From Armatimonadota bacterium (GTDB lineage Bacteria > Armatimonadota > UBA5829 > DTLH01): 42,997 nt of DNA. The notes below the pieces were generated by a model that saw nothing but the letters and a program-made list of their open reading frames with translations, ran no database searches and was not told the origin of the DNA. Position 1 is the stretch's first letter, and each line of letters begins with the position of its first letter. The translations under genes were made by a program, and so were the position numbers. This document shows, piece by piece, positions 2,564-40,995 of the stretch. The stretch is taken from assembly GCA_016190935.1 (NCBI GenBank), contig JACPPP010000211.1:1-42997 (forward strand), written 5' to 3'.

Positions 2564-2704
2564 AAAGATCCGCCAAGGCTTGCGTATTCGTTTAGCCCTC
2601 ATCTTAGCAGGGGTACATCCACCATGGTGAGCACCGCTTTGCTGGCCACGGCGGTTTTTCGATTGAACAATGGCAAGATGCGAGCGCAAGGAGGCTTAAA
2701 GCTA

Positions 2705-3646
2705 ATGAACCGCGCAATAACTGTCACCGGCCTGGTAATCGTTTGCCTGGCCGCTATGTTTGTCGGACCTGTCACAGCCGGTGATTCTGCTCCCACTGCG
2801 TCCGAAGATGAAATGTTGGTCGTGACCGGGATCGTGACCGCTAGATACGGCAGCACAGTTACCTTGAAAACAGACGCGGACACGGTATATACGGTCGATA
2901 CAGATAACGCAGAAGTGATGCTGGACCGGTTTCCGGGGAACAGTATGAGCCTCAGAGTAGGCGATCGTATGCAAGTCCACGCAAAGCAGTTGGAGCCGAA
3001 AAGGCTTCAGGCTTCGCTAATCCAGGTATTCCTTTCCGAAGCGGAGGCGGCTGCGACTCATGCTGCGCCTGCTGGCGCCGGCGCTGGTCCGGCGGAGGGC
3101 GACGGTGATGTTCGTCTTCCTTCCATCGGGGACTCGCTTGGCGCCTGGCGAAGCAGGGGGTTTGTAGTCGATACCAATTACTCCGACAGGCTGGTCACTA
3201 TCGTGACATCGAAGGGACCGTTTGTCATAGACACCAGGATCGCTACTATCGTGGAGGCCGGCAAAAGCGTACCACTCGCGCGCTTGGGCCAGGGTGATGC
3301 GGTAAGAGTCTGGGGCGAAGTTGTGGGGCTGAACAAGATCAAGGCTGATAGGATCGAGATCATAAGAGAAAATGCAAAGCAGGACTCCGCTTTGCCGCTT
3401 AAATCAGTAGCTGTGAATGGGCGGATAACGTTCATAGACTATCCATCGTTTACTTTCAGATTGAGCACAAGCTCGGGAGACCTGAAGTTCCTGGCAGACG
3501 AAAACACGTTCATCCACTTCAGAGCCGAGCGGAAGGCGTTCCAGAACCTGGCCATCGGACAGGTAGTGAAGGTCTCTGCAATCGGCAGTCTGAACAGTGG
3601 ATATGTAGCAAGTGAGATATTGGTAATCGGCGCACCGAGAAACTGA
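2705..3646 (+). CDS. Secreted protein with repeated OB/DUF5666-like beta segments
   Basis: Signal peptide MNRAITVTGLVIVCLAAMFVGPVTAG from internal ATG 2705; repeated VTGIVTARYGSTVTLKTDADTVYTVDTD-like segments. Confidence 0.55.
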   Translation: MNRAITVTGLVIVCLAAMFVGPVTAGDSAPTASEDEMLVVTGIVTARYGSTVTLKTDADTVYTVDTDNAEVMLDRFPGNSMSLRVGDRMQVHAKQLEPKRLQASLIQVFLSEAEAAATHAAPAGAGAGPAEGDGDVRLPSIGDSLGAWRSRGFVVDTNYSDRLVTIVTSKGPFVIDTRIATIVEAGKSVPLARLGQGDAVRVWGEVVGLNKIKADRIEIIRENAKQDSALPLKSVAVNGRITFIDYPSFTFRLSTSSGDLKFLADENTFIHFRAERKAFQNLAIGQVVKVSAIGSLNSGYVASEILVIGAPRN

Positions 3647-3692
3647 CAGGTAAAACGTCCGACAGCAGATGAGCGGGGACGGGCAACACCGA

Positions 3693-3720
3693 TGGGCAGG
3701 GACATCCCTGTCCCTGCCCA
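3693..3720. terminator. Perfect 12-bp hairpin between convergent genes (possible bidirectional terminator)
   Basis: TGGGCAGGGACA TCCC TGTCCCTGCCCA; immediately followed by GGACTT CC AAGTCC (3730-3743). Confidence 0.6.
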
Positions 3721-3747
3721 AGTTTCCCAGGACTTCCAAGTCCCGCA

Positions 3748-4293
3748 TCAGCGCCTCCTTCTCCTCATCACTACTTCCCCAAGCCCTGAGGCTGCAAGGC
3801 CGAGGGCGAGGAGGGAGGAGGGTTCGGGGATGTTGGGATCCGGTACAGGCAGAGGAGCATCTGCAAACCCCCAGTCACTGTTACCATTTACATCAACGAC
3901 ATAGTACCAATTCCAAGCGCCCATGCCGACGCGATCCTCGCGCGCATAGTCAGTCGGTACGTCTGCGAGAGTAGTAAACCGAACAGGACTTGCAGCAAAT
4001 ATCAATACCAGTTCTTCGTTTGCATAATTCAGTTCGTATTCCCAGTCATATAAATCAACATCGGCAATCGATCTGAGGCCTGCCTCACTCATACCAATTG
4101 AGATGGTCGTAACAGGGTATATCGGCTCAATGTCATTGATGAAGTAATAAGAGTAGGTCTTAACTCCATCAGCAACTGTTATGTCCCATTTTGCTCTTAA
4201 CATAGCCATTGCTGTTGCAGGCAGGAGGACAAGAAGTCCCAAGATCAGGACGATAAGCACTTTCCACCGTGTAGCAGTTTGTCGATTAAACAT
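3748..4293 (-). CDS. PEP-CTERM sorting domain protein
   Basis: Signal peptide MFNRQTATRWKVLIVLILGLLVLLPATAMA; C-term IPEPSSLLALGLAASGLGEVVMRRRRR. Confidence 0.9.
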   Translation of the reverse strand: MFNRQTATRWKVLIVLILGLLVLLPATAMAMLRAKWDITVADGVKTYSYYFINDIEPIYPVTTISIGMSEAGLRSIADVDLYDWEYELNYANEELVLIFAASPVRFTTLADVPTDYAREDRVGMGAWNWYYVVDVNGNSDWGFADAPLPVPDPNIPEPSSLLALGLAASGLGEVVMRRRRR

Positions 4294-4309
4294 TGTGTAT
4301 AACTTCTTT

Positions 4310-4978
4310 CTACTGTTTGTATATTTTATAAGCCCAGTCGTATTCGCCACTTCCGTAAAGCGGCAGCGGATCGCCGTTCCCATCCCAGTTAGGGTTGAAC
4401 GTCAAGGAATCTCCATCGTTCAGCGGGCCTACAGTCCGTGTTCCCTTGAGGAAGCCAAGGTGTGGGTCATTGGCATTGATGTCCCCAGGCCTGGTTGACC
4501 ACCTCTCTATCACATAGGTTCCCGCCTCAAGGTTTGTTATCGTGATGCTTGTGCTCGTTGGTATGTCCGTAGGTGTTGGCACATACGTCAGGTCGGGATG
4601 CTGGTCCGGCTTGCCGGCAGAGTTGTACCAGGTGCTCGTCAGGTTCTTTACATACAAGTAAGCCCGATTGATCCGATCCTGAGACCCCTTTCCCAGCATC
4701 CCATACACACCAACATCTGGATCGCTATTGGTCACTGAGATCCGAGGGCTCTGGTTCACAGGATCTGACACCGGATAGTAAGACTCCTGCGTCATCCCAC
4801 GGAAGTCTACGTCACTAAGGTAGTTGTTGAGCGGTTCGAATATGCTCCAATGGGCCGTCCCGCCATTGAAATAGCCAGGATGCCAATGACTGCCCCCAAC
4901 GGCATTGAAGATCAGTCCCCAGAACCAATCCTTGGTATGCTGCGGGAACGGTGCCTTGCGGCTGACTTTCGTCTTCGC
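4310..4978 (-). pseudogene. C-terminal fragment of a larger secreted (glycoside-hydrolase-like) protein
   Basis: Coding-like sequence extends upstream of the ORF-track ATG (4795) to an in-frame TGA at 4979-4981: ...KAPFPQHTKDWFWGLIFNAVGGSHWHPGYFNGGTAHWSIFEPLNNYLSDVDFRG-MTQESYY...; no plausible start or signal peptide. Confidence 0.6.
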
Positions 4979-5009
4979 TCAGCATCCAGTTCCCACAGCA
5001 AGGGCAGGA

Positions 5010-5543
5010 CTATCTCTTCCTTCTCCTCATCACCACTCCCCCAAGCCCTGAGGCTGCTAGGCCGAGGGCGAGGAGGGAGGAGGGTTCTGGGACGGGGACT
5101 GGGAGAATAGTATTGCCCACGTAGCCTGTGCCACCCTCGTAAGTCCAAACCCAGTTGAAGCCATACCGAGGCGCATAGTCATAGCCAGTAGGCACATCCG
5201 GGTGGGTCACGATGGTGAAATCCCCGGAACTGCCAGGCTGAATTCTGTGAGCCGAAGGGTACACCCACCACTTCACTTCGTGCGGCCCGTCCCCTCGGCC
5301 TTGTATATACGTTCGCCATTCGCTTGTGGGGCCAGACAGCGACGTGAGGGATGGCACCACTGAAGCGGGTACGAAAAGGACGAAACTGTTTATCGCCGTT
5401 GTTGGGGACGTATTCGTCAGCGTGTAGATGTAAACCACGGCTTCTGAAGACCGATTTATGGTCGTCGTAATAACGGGATATGCGGCCAGTGCAGAATGCG
5501 TTGCACACAATGCAAAAAGAACCGACAACATCAGCTTTCTCAT
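5010..5543 (-). CDS. PEP-CTERM sorting domain protein (paralog of 6572-7120)
   Basis: MRKLMLSVLFALCATHSALAAYPVITTTINRSSEAVVYIYTLTNTS...; C-term VPEPSSLLALGLAASGLGGVVMRRRKR. Confidence 0.92.
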   Translation of the reverse strand: MRKLMLSVLFALCATHSALAAYPVITTTINRSSEAVVYIYTLTNTSPTTAINSFVLFVPASVVPSLTSLSGPTSEWRTYIQGRGDGPHEVKWWVYPSAHRIQPGSSGDFTIVTHPDVPTGYDYAPRYGFNWVWTYEGGTGYVGNTILPVPVPEPSSLLALGLAASGLGGVVMRRRKR

Positions 5544-5604
5544 AGGAGACTCCTTCATCGAAATGTGAGGCACAGCGAATTGTGCTGTGCCTCTCTAACT
5601 TTGT

Positions 5605-5721
5605 CTACCGTACAGTTTTGAAAGCCAAGAGCTTCCCACCATCGGCTCTGGTAGTGACGAACACCCATCTGTTGTTGTCTTCGTCCACGTTATACGCGAT
5701 AGCGGGACTTGAGCAGATGAA
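5605..5721 (-). pseudogene. Detached C-terminal tail of PQQ-propeller protein, copy 1
   Basis: Minus translation FICSSPAIAYNVDEDNNRWVFVTTRADGGKLLAFKTVR*, matching the end of ORF 7185-9803 (FICSSPAISYNVTGNDRWVFVTTRADGGKLLAFRTDR*). Confidence 0.92.
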
Positions 5722-5724
5722 ACA

Positions 5725-5751
5725 AAGGCCGAGCATTGTGCTCCCGGCCTT
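5725..5751 (-). terminator. Hairpin terminator downstream of PEP-CTERM gene 5770-6438
   Basis: Minus AAGGCCGGGAGCACAATGCTCGGCCTTTGTTT. Confidence 0.65.
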
Positions 5752-5769
5752 CGCATTTGTATGGCCCTA

Positions 5770-6438
5770 CTAGCGCCTCGTTCGCCTCAGTGCCAGCCCT
5801 CCCAGTCCGGCAATCCCTCCGGCAAGTGCCAGAATGGAGGATGGTTCGGGAATCATTGTCAGTGTGAACTTGAAACCGTAACCGGTCAGCCCATTGGACG
5901 CAGAGTAGAAGGGAAGCACGAAGCTGGGGGGAGTTGTCCATACCGTCCATAGTTCAGGCCCTCTAGTTATCCCCTGCGGCTTCTGGATGTATTCAAGTTG
6001 CGCAAGAACTAACGGATCGCTGTATACAGGTGACTCCCACGCCAAGGAAAGATCAGAAGGCGCAGAACCCGGCACAGCCCATATATACAGCAGCCATATC
6101 TTTGTCTCACCAGGAAGCATATATGCTCGTGCATCCACGTTATAGAAACCTGTGGGACCATCCCAGCCATCTGCCACATCATGGTATGAACCGCCCGTCC
6201 AGCCGGAACTTGAGACGGTTGCCAGAGTGTCATAATGGTCGAAGCCGTCAAGGGCGCGTCCTCCGGTACCCATGCTGATGCCGAACTGTCCTGTAGACCA
6301 CGCCCCCGTTGACCAACCGCCAAGTCCAGGATATATTACTGCTTGAGCAGGACAGATTGCAGCAAGCAGCAGCGTGGCGATAAAAGTCACCCCGACTCGT
6401 AACCTTGTCTGTGTCTTACCTAGTCGTCTTGAACGCAT
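5770..6438 (-). CDS. PEP-CTERM sorting domain protein (different family from its neighbours)
   Basis: MRSRRLGKTQTRLRVGVTFIATLLLAAICPAQA signal; C-term IPEPSSILALAGGIAGLGGLALRRTRR. Confidence 0.9.
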   Translation of the reverse strand: MRSRRLGKTQTRLRVGVTFIATLLLAAICPAQAVIYPGLGGWSTGAWSTGQFGISMGTGGRALDGFDHYDTLATVSSSGWTGGSYHDVADGWDGPTGFYNVDARAYMLPGETKIWLLYIWAVPGSAPSDLSLAWESPVYSDPLVLAQLEYIQKPQGITRGPELWTVWTTPPSFVLPFYSASNGLTGYGFKFTLTMIPEPSSILALAGGIAGLGGLALRRTRR

Positions 6439-6526
6439 AGAGTTTCCCTCCATCTGATCTGGTTGTAATAAAGACCCATCGGTTGTGGTTAACATCTACA
6501 TTGTAGCCAGTAGCGGGACTTGAACA
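6416..6526 (-). pseudogene. Detached C-terminal tail of PQQ-propeller protein, copy 2 (overlaps the start of 5770-6438 in another frame)
   Basis: Minus translation CSSPATGYNVDVNHNRWVFITTRSDGGKLYAFKTTR*. Confidence 0.9.
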
Positions 6527-6530
6527 CCGA

Positions 6531-6556
6531 TGGCCGGGGAGATGACTCCCCGGCCA
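6531..6556 (-). terminator. Perfect 11-bp hairpin downstream of PEP-CTERM gene 6572-7120
   Basis: TGGCCGGGGAG ATGA CTCCCCGGCCA. Confidence 0.75.
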
Positions 6557-6571
6557 AAGTTCGGCGGATAT

Positions 6572-7120
6572 TCACCCGCCCCTGCGCCTTCTTCTCATCA
6601 TCACTCCCCCAAGCCCTGACGCTGTAAGGCCGAGGGCGAGGAGGGAGGTGGGTTCGGGGATGGGGACAGGAAGGGTAGTATTGCCTACATCTTCTTTGGA
6701 CGTTCCATCTCGGTAGCCCCAACCCCAGTTAGAACCGTTCAGGGGCGCATAATCGTAACTGGTCGCAACACCAGGCTCTGTCACCAGTGTAAAACTCCCG
6801 GAACCACCAGGCTGAAGCCTGTATTCCGCAGTCGTCGCGCGCCATCCTACGTGCCAAGAGTCCGCTACCCCAGCACGACCGTATATTGACGCCTCCCATC
6901 CTTCTGTTGAACCGGACAGGGATGTAACCATCGACACGACCGCTTCCGGTATGTAAATGAAGAAGTTGGTTACCTCTGCCGTTGCTGATGTATTCGCCAG
7001 CGTGTAGATATACGTAACAGCTCCTTGGGACTGATTGATGCTCGCAGTTACGATAGGATATACTGCCAGTGCGGGCTGCATTGCAAGAGCTAAGCACACA
7101 AAGCATAGTAATGTTTTCAT
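6572..7120 (-). CDS. PEP-CTERM sorting domain protein (paralog of 5010-5543)
   Basis: MKTLLCFVCLALAMQPALAVYPIVTASINQSQGAVTYIYTLANTS...; C-term IPEPTSLLALGLTASGLGGVMMRRRRRGG. Confidence 0.92.
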   Translation of the reverse strand: MKTLLCFVCLALAMQPALAVYPIVTASINQSQGAVTYIYTLANTSATAEVTNFFIYIPEAVVSMVTSLSGSTEGWEASIYGRAGVADSWHVGWRATTAEYRLQPGGSGSFTLVTEPGVATSYDYAPLNGSNWGWGYRDGTSKEDVGNTTLPVPIPEPTSLLALGLTASGLGGVMMRRRRRGG

Positions 7121-7184
7121 ACTACATTTCTCCTTCCGAAAGGTCTGGCACAGCGGATAGTGCCCGCTGTGCCAACAATATCTG

Positions 7185-10100
7185 TTACCGATCAGTCCTG
7201 AAAGCCAACAGTTTTCCACCATCGGCTCTTGTGGTGACGAATACCCATCTGTCATTGCCAGTTACATTATACGATATGGCTGGACTTGAGCAAATAAAGC
7301 CGCTGTTTTGGTATCCGGTATATGCGGCTTCCTGAGAAAGAATACCATTTATGTTGTGCGTGTTGAGCGCGTAGAGCTTACCATCGTCGTTCCCGACGTA
7401 TGCCAGTCCATTGCTTGCCAGCGCAGCCGATCCGACAAAGTAGTTGGTTGCCACAAACTCATCATCGTCGTCCTCCAGACTATCAGGCAATAGCTCGTGG
7501 AAAGTGATCCCCGTATCCATACCTACGTAGAGGCGACCGAAACCGGATGCCATAGTTCCACGAATTTCTTCGGCGCTTCCCAGGTAACTTACCTCCTGCG
7601 CCTCCAATATCTCGAACGGTTCTATGGATAGACGGTAAGCGTTGATGCCATGATAACGTGATGCACCTACATACGCTTCATTCCCTACGACAGTCGGAGA
7701 CGACTCAACGCAGGCGTCCACATCGATACCTGCAACCGACCTGTCGCTGAGCTTAATCCTGTAGATATAGCCGTCATCGCAACCTACAAGAAGATATGTG
7801 TTTTCGCCCACGGTTGCTATCGCTGGGGATGAAGTTCCACATATCTTTTGCTGTAAGCCGGTAACCCCGTTTCCATCATTACCATGACCCGATTCATCTA
7901 TTGGCAATATGATCGGAAGATAGTCGTGAGCCTCGTTCGGCTCATCTGACCAGATGCGCGTGCCATTTGCATCCGCCGAGAAAGCATATACCTTCGACGC
8001 TTCGTTTGTGATATACACCACTCCGTTATGCACGACAGGGGAGGATATGATTTTGCTCAAGCTCTCTGTCCTGTCATATGTCGGGCGAGACCATATCTGA
8101 CTACCGTCGCTCAAGCTCAGGCAATACAGGTAGCCGTTGCTCGAACCAACATAAACCTTTTGGTCTACAATACATGGAGTTGATGCTACACCTCCCATTG
8201 AAGGTGTGCCGGTCGCTGTCCAAAGCGTAGCACCGTTGTCCGCGGCGTTGAAAGCCTTTACGCTTCCCGTAGCATCAAGGTAGTCTCCGCTCCAGGTCCC
8301 AACAACCACCTTGCTTCCTACAACAACAGGGCTGGAATCAATATATGGATGGGCAAATATCCAAGTATTGCCACCGGCAGGATTTGGATGGTAGACTGTT
8401 TGCCCGATGATCTGAACCGACCAGACCGGCTGAGACTCTGACGCTCGTAGTGTCTGTTGTGCCGTAGAGACACTTACCGGCGTCCAGGCTGTTGTTGTCA
8501 GCGTCTCATCCGTTACATCCCATGTCCTGCTCATACCCGTGTGCTGTGCATCATGCATGAACATCGGCCAGTCATCAGGCGCGGTATCGAAGAACCAGAT
8601 CTCCAGGGACTCGCTTGTGCTGCCCAGCCCGCAGGATCGTACAGTCACGGCTGTCACAGTCAGTTTACCTGGGGTTTGTCTGGTCACTGTCGCCGTAACT
8701 ACCCCGTTGATATTGGTGTAGCCGCAGCCCGAGGTGCTTCCCGGTGGGAACTGACTCCCGTTGATGTGTGTGAGCGTTCCGCCTGTGACGAAGAAGCACA
8801 CTGTCGCATAGTAAGGATGCTGTCCGTTCCAGTCCGTGACCGTCGCCGTAACTGTCACTGACCCGGACACCTGGCCCAGCTCTGGGTCGGCGGACATGGA
8901 AATGTAATACCATCCGCATCCGTCCGACTCATCGGCTCCTATGTCCACAGTGCTGTTCTGTATTCTATCCTCGCCGTCCATGTCCACCCAGCCTGTCTGG
9001 ACTGCCCCGTTATTGCCTGCATCCTTGCACGGCGAGTTGGGCTGAATGTGGAAGTTTTCCTCGGCCACACTGACCAGCTTCGGGTCTTCTGAGATATTAC
9101 CATTTTGTCCCGTTGGGTCAGACCCAGAATAGTTGTATTCGGAACCCGCAGGATTCCAAACACAGTTGTTCTGAAACGTCGGGTCACTACCAGTGTTATA
9201 TACCTCTGAGGAATTGGACGCGACAATGTTGTTCACTGTAGTCGAACTGGTAATCCCGGAATCGAAGTAGATGCCTCCACCACTGGCGCTGGCTGTGTTG
9301 CCAGCGATTGTGTTGTTGGTGAGCGTAGTCGTGCTGTAGAGGCCGCAGTAGATGCCGCCGCCGTTGCTTGCGCTATTGCCGGTGATCGTGTTGTTCGCTA
9401 CATTTGGCGACGAATAGAAGTCGCAACTTATACCTCCCCCCTCAGAACCCGCAGTATTCTTTGTAATCCAGTTGTTCAGGATCTCAGCCGCAGACGAATT
9501 GGTTACGTTGATTCCGCCACCTGCTCCAAGCTGAGTGCTGTTTGCAGAAATCGTGTTGTTTACGATCCGCGGAGCGCCTCCGAAACTGTGGATACCGCCT
9601 CCTTGTTGACTAGCTATATTACCTGTGACTGTGTTGTTTGAGATCGTCGGTGAGGAATCCTCGCACCGAATCCCGCCACCGTACGCGTCTGATCCAGTGG
9701 CCTGGCCGCCTTGTATCTTAAAACCATCAATCGTGGTAGCCGAGCTTGTGCAGGTCGAGTCAGCCTTGACAACGCTGTAGCCCTGATAGCCGCTGCCATC
9801 CAAGACTGTAATATTAGCCGCCCAGTCTCTTCACTCCCGATATGTTTCTGTGCCTGCGAAGCCTCCGTATAGCGCTACTCCATTCTTGAGTTGTACAGAA
9901 CTTGTACCAGCATACGTCCGCTGCGGCAACCCATACTTCAGGATAGATGTTTCCGCCGTTGTAGGCGGTGTTAAGTGCGTTCTGGACGGTGGCCTTGGCG
10001 TTGGCCCAGCTAAGGCCACTATTGCTATCGCTTCCACTAGGCTTGACATATATTATACCTGCTGCGCCGCCAGGTCCGGTGATGTCGCTGACCTCGACTG

Positions 10101-11918
10101 TGACGTTAGTGTCAGCATAATTGCCTGCCCGGTCATAGGCGCGAGCGTATATAGTGTGCGAACCCGCAGCCATATCCCAGCCTGCATAGGTCCATTCCTT
10201 TGTCGTGGAGTTGTAGTCAGCGACAGGCGCATTCGGCCAATCCGGCGTTCCGTCCAGCCAGACTTTTACCGTTGCTATACCGCTAAATGCGTCGGTGGCT
10301 GTTCCCTCAACAGGCACAAGAGCGTCCGGGTGCTTGTGGATGTCACCGACGGGAGCGGTGATAGTTATGGTCGGCGAGTACGGATCGTACAGCTCATCAG
10401 CGCCCATATCGACCGTGTCATACAACAGGCGATCATCCCCGTCGAGGTCCGTCGAAGGAAGGGCGCCAGGAGCGGGAGGATCGTTTTCGCCGGTGTTCAT
10501 GCACGGGGAGTCCGGTCCGAGGTGGTAGTCTCCACTGCCCCTGAACAGAGGATCATCCTCTATGTTCGTTCCGTCTGAGTAACGTTGACATAGTTGCCAC
10601 CGGCGTTGTCCCAGGAGTCGTTATTCTTCAGCGTTTCTGTGACTACAGCCCCGTCGGGTTCCCATACGCCGCAGGCGTCGTTGGAGGCAAAGATGTTGTT
10701 ATAGACATCCACCGCGTAAATGCTCGATCCGGTTATGCTGAGCCCTCCGCCAAAGTTGTAACCGGGGTTAACATTGTTGTTGGTGACTGTGTTGCTAATG
10801 ATCGAAGCCGATGAGTAGTTGACATAGATCGCACCATGCATCCATGTAGTCCTGCCGTTCCCGTCTATCCAGTTGTTCACCAGCACCGGCCACGGGCTGC
10901 CATACTCCGGGGTGTTCTGCAGGATTGCGCAGCCTCCATTAGAGGCAGTATTGTCTCTGATCTCGTTCAATCGAATTGTGGGGGACGCGGCACGACCGTA
11001 GACACCGTCCTGGTGGACACCTACCGCGCCGCCAGCCTGCACACCAGTGTTGTTAACAATAGTGTTCCGCTCTATTATCGGTGAACTGCCATAACAACTG
11101 ATGCCGGCTCCGATATTCGCACTGTTGTTTATGATCTTGTTGTTTCTGATAGTGGGGTCGGCGCGCCGGCAGTAGATGCCGCCGCCGTACCAGTAAGTAT
11201 AGTATTTCGTGCCGGTGCCACCAGTAATTGTGAAGCCGTCTATGATCGTATCGTTGCCTGCTCCGGTGGGTACCGTCACCACGCTGCCGTAGTCGCCTCC
11301 GGGATTTTGTGCGTCTATGATGGTTTCGTCGAGCTCGAAATCCCGGTCCTCTCTTGAAGTCGCACCGTAGGCCAATCCACCATAAAGACCTACGCCAGCT
11401 TTCAACGTGATTTGCTCGTTGTAGGTCGCTCCGGCAACCCACACCTCGTCTCCAGCCGAGGCAGCATTAAGTCCGGCGGTTATCGTCTGTTTCGCGTATC
11501 CCCACGATAGCCCGTTATTGTTATCATTGCCATCCGGCTTTACGTAGATGATAGTTGTGGAAAGGGTACGAACCCCTCCGGACGAAGCGGCCCCGTCGGA
11601 ATCGGAAGTCAACCGCAGATAGTCTTCGAAGGTCACGTCCTGAGCCGTGACCACACACTCCTCGCGCGCCAAAGCCGTGCCTTGGGCCCAGGCTCGGGCC
11701 GAGATTGCAGTATCATGCCCGATGATGAACGGGCCAGTGTAGACGGGGCAGGCAGGTGTCGGATCGGTCCCGTCTGTTGTGTAATGGATTAATGCGCCTT
11801 CCACGGCGCAGTCGATAACTACAAACTTGCCGTATACCGCGTGAGATTGCGCGGCGGCGGCAGAACATAGAATGAATAGAACACATACACAAAAAGCTGA
11901 TATAGCTATCCTTTTCAT
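7185..11918 (-). pseudogene. Large secreted protein (CHB_HEX-like, parallel beta-helix, Ig-like, PQQ-like propeller) broken by two frameshifts and one nonsense codon
   Basis: ORFs 10560-11918 (signal peptide MKRIAISAFCVCVLFILCSAAAAQ), 9814-10500, 9831-10049 and 7185-9803 are consecutive pieces. Reading resumes as DGTNIEDDPLFRGSGDYHLGPDSPCMNT near 10570, RTYAGTSSVQLKNGVALYGGFAGTETYRE near 9927, then TGA and RDWAANITVLDGSGYQ near 9830. Confidence 0.85.
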
Positions 11919-40831: not shown

Positions 40832-40995
40832 AGCTATCAGCAATCAGCCGTCAGCATTCGCCAGGGGCCGGGAGCCGGGGGCCAGGGTCCGGACGAATGT
40901 CCGAGAGACACGCGCCGGGGAGGAATCTCCCCGGCCATCGATACCCAACCCGAGTAAGAGCGATCTAAAATCTAAAATCTAAAATCTAAGATCCC
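40832..40995. repeat. Heptad words TCAGCNN, GGGGCCN and AATCTAA with two GAAT-loop hairpins
   Basis: CTATCAG CAATCAG CCGTCAG; AGGGGCC GGGAGCC GGGGGCC AGGGTCC; CGGAC-GAAT-GTCCG; GCCGGGGAG-GAAT-CTCCCCGGC; AATCTAA x3. Confidence 0.85.

Follow-up and report, generated by a model that had tools for sequence, protein, structure and literature searches.

Layout of the array

The window, the whole stretch of 42,997 nucleotides (nt) analysed here, is contig JACPPP010000211.1 of an Armatimonadota bacterium (GCA_016190935.1; genome G000). It carries on the minus strand an array of four intact genes for small PEP-CTERM proteins, each located 3' of the end of a larger gene. Two of the four preceding ends are detached 37-codon tails of a large secreted beta-helix/beta-propeller (PQQ-like) gene. 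The order is large gene (ends 7185), PEP-A, tail2, PEP-B, tail1, PEP-A', glycoside hydrolase-like (GH-like) tail and PEP-C (Table 1). A first-pass annotation had described four PEP-CTERM genes, each behind the C-terminal end of another protein, and its coordinates and order hold. It had also read the array as a single unit repeated four times. The array comprises three unrelated small-gene bodies (A/A', B, C), which have only the sorting tag in common, and the description stands as architecture, not as one repeated unit. The locus is a case of gene shuffling caught part-way, with recent cuts, recurrence in relatives and intact small genes.

Table 1. Features of the array in the window. SD, Shine-Dalgarno sequence; ORF, open reading frame; z, folding z-score.
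Feature	Position	Strand	Evidence
Large secreted beta-helix/Ig-like/PQQ-like beta-propeller gene, array head	7185..11918	-	ORFs; Pfam NosD/PQQ_2/Big; homology to G014 gene
C-terminal 37 codons of the large gene, still joined (FICSSPAISYN...LLAFRTDR), type-a tail	7185..7298	-	
Hairpin between large-gene stop and PEP-A; kept in place before PEP-A'	7147..7173	-	folding z -4.8; alignment
PEP-A, small PEP-CTERM protein, 182 aa, own SD	6572..7120	-	ORF; Pfam/NCBIfam
Element E1, dispersed double hairpin; holds PEP-A stop codon, abuts tail2	6528..6579	-	folding z -5.8
Detached tail2, type b (CSSPATGYN...LYAFKTTR)	6416..6526	-	tblastn; alignment
PEP-B, PEP-CTERM protein, 222 aa; SD and ATG within tail2	5770..6438	-	ORF; NCBIfam
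Hairpin behind PEP-B with T-rich run, terminator-like; contains ATG in tail1 frame	5726..5752	-	z -3.2
Detached tail1, type a (FICSSPAIAYN...LLAFKTVR)	5605..5721	-	tblastn; alignment
Hairpin separating tail1 from PEP-A', equivalent to 7147-7173	5567..5593	-	z -6.0
PEP-A', PEP-CTERM protein, 177 aa, 54% identical to PEP-A	5010..5543	-	Pfam/NCBIfam
Long hairpin behind PEP-A', common to C337 behind PEP-B''	4936..5001	-	z -6.6
Detached C-terminal part of GH-like gene (open frame from 4978)	4310..4936	-	larger relatives elsewhere
PEP-C, PEP-CTERM protein, 181 aa	3748..4293	-	Pfam/NCBIfam
PEP-C sorting-tag DNA; near-identical to the tags of A' (5013-5093), A (6575-6655) and C337 PEP-B''	3751..3831	-	
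Double hairpin E2 behind PEP-C, of the same build as E1	3685..3737	-	z -4.2

Detached tails

The detached tails match the end of the intact PQQ-like gene in tblastn searches of the own genome (E=1.8e-13 and 1.1e-10). The same search retrieved two further copies on contig C337. A tail profile, built partly from these same detached tails, matches them at about 1e-28. By Nei-Gojobori counting, tail1 differs from the window's large gene at 16 of 26 synonymous and 8 of 85 non-synonymous sites. Corresponding counts are 19.5/26.7 and 6.5/96 for the detached tail of C337 (tail337) compared with the large gene of that contig (PQQ337), and 18.3/25.7 and 9.7/88 for tail2 compared with PQQ337. The detached tails are short, about 37 codons, and the three in this genome contain no stop codon. 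Tail2 is not translatable alone, because its frame holds no ATG, GTG or TTG between the PEP-A stop codon and the conserved part. The missing start codon and the coding-type constraint together indicate that the constraint on tail2 predates the cut. Most simply, it is older than the cut in tail1 and tail337 as well. In simulations of neutral decay, at most ~0.1 changes per site since detachment were compatible with the tails (joint p ~0.04 at 0.1, <0.001 at 0.15); neutral change beyond about 0.1 per site would give more amino-acid changes or stops than are present. Judged from these substitution patterns, the cuts are recent, and the tails belonged to working full-length genes until recently, instead of being fresh tandem copies.

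The large-gene tree separates into two clades, and in the tail tree all detached tails group with clade II. In genome G020, the intact neighbour belongs to clade I and the detached tail groups with clade II (UFboot/SH-aLRT 96/99), which counts against the tails being copies of the neighbour's tail. The tail types pair consistently with the PEP types (a with A, b with B) in every case examined.

Joins, hairpins and element E

A start at the CSSP codons, taken in the first-pass annotation as the recurrent boundary of a unit, is common to tail1 and tail2 only, two of the four homologous detached tails. The other detached copies begin upstream of CSSP, by ~13 codons in tail337, ~27 in G020 and >170 in G022. 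The annotation itself had stated that loss of the shared boundary in an alignment of more copies would count against it, and the shared start is lost once the C337, G020 and G022 copies are aligned. The recurrent feature is the left side of the join. Either a hairpin that follows the upstream PEP gene ends there, or the join falls within the last codons of that gene. Tails start within a few bases of a hairpin end at E1, at the hairpins after B and after A', and at the copy of element E in C337. Element E supplies the stop codons of PEP-A and of PEP-B' in C337. No hairpin is present at the joins in G020, G004 and G003, where the remnant itself provides the PEP stop codon. Hairpins or GC-rich arginine codons may favour the joins.

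The hairpins fold much better than shuffled sequences. A terminator had been assigned to the end of each gene, for the most part wrongly; the hairpin after B is followed by a T-run, the others have none, and terminator-like matches in the region occur at chance level. The hairpin after A' recurs in C337 behind PEP-B'' (159 nt at 91%, sorting tag included). The hairpins at 7147-7173 and 5567-5593 are kept in place in both units and lack a T-run; possibly they represent a regulatory or RNA-processing site.

Element E is a double hairpin with about 50 dispersed copies in this genome (47 matches). A search of 21 genomes found none in the 20 relatives, and the restriction to this genome also fits recent joins. 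Its form is GCGGATGAATATCCGC-CACACCTG-GGCCGGGGAGGAATCTCCCCGGCC-ATCG, located in the window at 6528-6579 and 40890-40940 and at ~45 other places in the genome. The element often has a longer left part, GCAGTCCGACGGAACA, and sometimes forms inverted pairs. The genome also contains Y1_Tnp genes similar to those of RAYTs, the transposases associated with repetitive extragenic palindromic (REP) sequences (L163, 113-649 and 1547-2086, minus strand; L164, 492-971, plus strand; L161). No copy of element E was present in the stretches fetched around these genes.

Second locus and related genomes

The first-pass annotation had suggested a search of the genome for other such junctions, and the genome holds a second locus with equal layout. 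On C337 (L050), a large gene is followed by PEP-B', a hairpin element, a detached tail, PEP-B'' and a hairpin; the contig begins within its large gene. At least two further families of the class, represented by G020 and G004, show the layout of the array as well. G020 comprises an intact large gene, a PEP gene with its stop in the first codons of the remnant, a detached tail of ~64 codons and an A-like PEP gene. In G004, a beta-helix/VWA large gene and PEP-B1 are followed by a detached tail of 114 codons, then by PEP-B2 and two further PEP genes. After PEP-B1, ~50 codons are near-identical in DNA to the 3' region of the large gene itself. Identity then falls sharply to ~60-65% over the last 60 codons, and the second B-type PEP gene is next, so that the tail is a mosaic.

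Headless or internally deleted units related to these are present in G022 and G001. G022 retains the N-terminus of a large gene and its last 215 codons, out of frame, followed by an intact PEP-B-like gene. G003 has a headless propeller fragment flanked by two PEP genes, and the PEP stop is within the codons of the fragment. Pairs of large gene and PEP gene were found in G002, G003 (C134) and G020 (C55). No further clear case emerged from 86 surveyed loci, which hold 108 PEP ORFs. A general location of PEP genes behind large genes was considered and rejected (17 of 108 compared with 44 of 233 control ORFs, no enrichment); the pattern therefore belongs mainly to A/B-type PEP genes. Synteny comparison in the sister genus G001 gave no close PQQ homologue, and homologues from a wider contig search are too distant to help. 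The genomes are mostly fragmented, with one per species; the window genome consists of 366 contigs.

PEP-CTERM genes and sorting tags

The C-terminal PEP-CTERM tag is present in all four small genes. NCBIfam TIGR02595 scores above cut-off for A, A', B and C, Pfam PF07589 for A' and C only, with A and B below. A and A' are homologous (54% amino-acid identity), B belongs to another family and C to a third. PEP-B starts inside tail2 in a different frame (SD GGAGGG, ATG at 6438) and has relatives in C337, G001, G022 and others. No relatives of the PEP-C body were found among 28 genomes of the class. The predicted model of PEP-A weakly resembles an immunoglobulin-like or carbohydrate-binding module at low confidence (mean pLDDT 70, best TMq 0.46), and a fold search with PEP-B gave no match.

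Over their final 27 codons, A, A', C and C337 PEP-B'' are 85-88% alike in DNA, with synonymous differences of 0.12-0.24. Among the bodies behind those tags, homologous ones are near synonymous saturation (0.61-0.74) and the others are unrelated. Tag DNA at least 80% identical with unrelated bodies was found in 5 of 18 neighbour pairs vs 5 of 571 other within-genome pairs (Fisher p=3e-6); the pairs are not independent of one another, and of the five distant ones three connect C163 with C337. These comparisons support a cassette-like exchange of sorting tags. A higher tag similarity within than between genomes was already noted in 2006, in a passage of Haft et al. (PMC1569441). Neighbouring PEP-CTERM genes with unrelated bodies and near-identical tag DNA also occur at L220 (G022:C81), L217 (G004:C7) and G011:C88. 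A 730-nt direct repeat of 95.6% identity spans PEP-CTERM sequence at L276 (G019:C1 1585649-1599649) and represents a recent duplication.

Origin of the array

On balance, the array probably derives from diverged pairs of large gene and PEP-CTERM gene, which lost their large genes by recombination ending at PEP-CTERM 3' ends. The ancestral array would have consisted of such pairs, a large secreted gene and then a small PEP-CTERM gene. The large genes of the downstream pairs would have been cut off recently, by recombination joining the upstream PEP-CTERM 3' end, or the adjoining hairpin, to an internal position of the next large gene. The PEP-CTERM genes would be kept and the tails would be leftovers of large genes; tail2 may persist by carrying the ribosome-binding site and start of PEP-B. 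Loss in place is favoured because of G022, G001:C59, G020 and the broken head gene, and the bodies in this window were presumably deleted in that manner. Repeated deletion of the large gene body had been proposed in the first-pass annotation. It agrees with the headless tails before intact PEP-CTERM genes, which this genome has at two loci and which other families also have, with G022 and with the paralogue mismatch in G020. Several points weigh against it. No close strain with an intact ancestor of the array is available, and the deletion in place is not observed here. Plain deletion does not yield the mosaic tail of G004. The tails extend over only ~37 codons, and with fragmented assemblies and the contig start in C337, frameshifts and missing bodies could partly be assembly faults.

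Displacement as an orphan module is a possible, clearly less probable origin. An incoming tail plus PEP-CTERM gene would recombine into the 3' part of a resident large gene, pushing the old tail and PEP-CTERM gene downstream; homologous sequence would join one end, and short matches at the PEP 3' end would join the other. The 3'-region repeat of G004, near-identical over ~50 codons before the sharp drop and the second B-type PEP gene, fits this course. So do the pairing of tail type with PEP type in all cases examined and the order a-b-a' in the window, which would correspond to successive insertions. However, no near-identical anchor repeat is found at the joins of the window, C337 or G020, and the tails are evenly diverged. 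The headless or deleted large genes of G022 and G001:C59 lack an upstream displaced unit, and the detached tail of G020 comes from another paralogue. Body loss is the best reading for most joins. The cassette exchange suggested initially holds for the sorting tags and, in G004, for a tail-plus-PEP module.

The remaining explanations are far less probable. Tails that are still functional, as small peptides or by coupling, would place the constraint under present-day selection. This improbable case has in its favour the coding-type constraint without stops, an in-frame ATG of tail1 with an SD-like GGGAG inside the preceding hairpin, and the PEP-B start site within tail2. Tail2, however, lacks any in-frame ATG, GTG or TTG, and the sole candidate start in tail337 and in the G020 tail is TTG, with no obvious SD before it. 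The 37 residues make up a portion of a single propeller blade and include no signal peptide. A promoter inside the tail, suggested by TATAAT-like codons of SYN/AYN, was rejected, since promoter-like sites occur at chance level. No more credible is a simple tandem duplication of the large-gene 3' end with its PEP-CTERM gene, in which the extra tails would have been debris from the outset. A single step would give the exact layout, and the A and A' units are 67.7% identical over 727 nt. Debris should diverge neutrally from the adjacent tail, but the tails have diverged like constrained coding sequence to synonymous saturation, tail2 of type b lies behind a type-a gene, and the G020 tail stems from the other clade. 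A recent duplication of the neighbouring tail, also offered in the first-pass annotation, is excluded by saturated synonymous sites at low amino-acid divergence. Least probable by some distance is an assembly artefact, in which bodies were lost or misjoined through repeats in metagenome assembly. The 366 contigs and the dispersed hairpin repeats at two joins would allow it; the recurrence of the layout, at two loci here and also in other genomes, speaks against it, as do the joins of G020 and G004, which hold no repeat of the element E family.

Comparison with known systems

The array resembles the orphan cdiA-CT/cdiI modules of contact-dependent inhibition (CDI) and the Rhs-CT/RhsI modules (PMC3150448), in which a full-length large secreted gene with a small partner is followed by headless 3' fragments with their own small genes. 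The fragments mostly lack start codons and have varying upstream lengths, and identity in G004 ends abruptly after the shared segment. In contrast to those modules, the small genes encode PEP-CTERM surface proteins, and the tails are short and conserved, not polymorphic. Most joins lack a shared anchor segment (clear in G004; absent in the window, C337 and G020). Neither a toxin C-terminus nor an immunity protein was found; Pfam and NCBIfam gave propeller/helix and PEP-CTERM domains only. No VENN-type marker or two-partner secretion partner was seen. Displacement by an incoming module has been proposed for the orphan CdiA-CT/CdiI and Rhs modules (Poole et al. 2011, PMC3150448). It is conceivable, although rather doubtful, that a large-gene end with its PEP-CTERM gene forms an exchangeable module, and that the headless tail-plus-PEP arrays store alternative C-termini and surface partners. 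Recombination could then load stored units onto the large gene or displace them, and sorting tags would be exchanged at the opposite end. Such arrays would be a non-toxin counterpart of the orphan CDI/Rhs arrays.

Frequent gene duplication and loss in PEP-CTERM/exosortase sets is noted in passages of Haft et al. 2006 (PMC1569441), which also rank PEP-CTERM genes with the gene sets that turn over most rapidly in their genomes. Here, unlike in those sets, unrelated genes share tag DNA specifically when they are neighbours, and they follow large-gene remnants; the passages concerned mention neither. The joins themselves are visible in the arrays; they are recent and located at the PEP-CTERM gene end, with tags spreading between neighbours. 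Body loss and module displacement, as two routes, become separable with strain-level genomes.

Element E resembles REP sequences and REPINs with RAYT transposases in being palindromic, dispersed in many copies and sometimes arranged in inverted pairs, and RAYT-like Y1_Tnp genes are present. Unlike in those systems, no copy of element E was found beside a RAYT-like gene in the stretches covered, and a role in the joins is conjectural. Ordinary deletion remnants in tandem gene families likewise place truncated paralogues beside intact neighbours. Unlike such remnants, most joins here are placed where the upstream gene or its hairpin ends, and they recur across families of the class.

Head gene, GH-like tail and neighbouring features

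The head gene is split into three ORFs (11918-10560, 10500-9814 and 9803-7185). Relative to an intact 1177-aa homologue in G014, it contains two frameshifts and an in-frame TGA (YRE*RDWAAN, near 9830), all between ~10575 and 9830; these frame breaks could be assembly errors. PQQ_2 and beta-helix domains are combined in one protein, as PQQ_2 and NosD in the window gene and as Beta_helix, PQQ_2 and Big_1 in G014.

Homology of the GH-like tail begins at ~4930, within an open frame of 4978-4310. Larger GH-like relatives of ~770-1230 aa are encoded in this genome (G000:C23, C290) and in G003, and the C23 relative contains DUF5060. On G001:C59, a 340-aa end of a GH-like gene is located directly before a PEP gene. 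A conserved GH/PEP-C pairing was considered and rejected: PEP-C has no relatives, and the PEP genes behind the G001 GH-like ends are longer, ~350-360 aa.

An Rfam scan of the window identified three tRNAs only. A gene for a DUF5666 protein (2624-3646, plus strand) is convergent with PEP-C from behind, and its stop codon (3644-3646) lies ~40 bases from the double hairpin E2.

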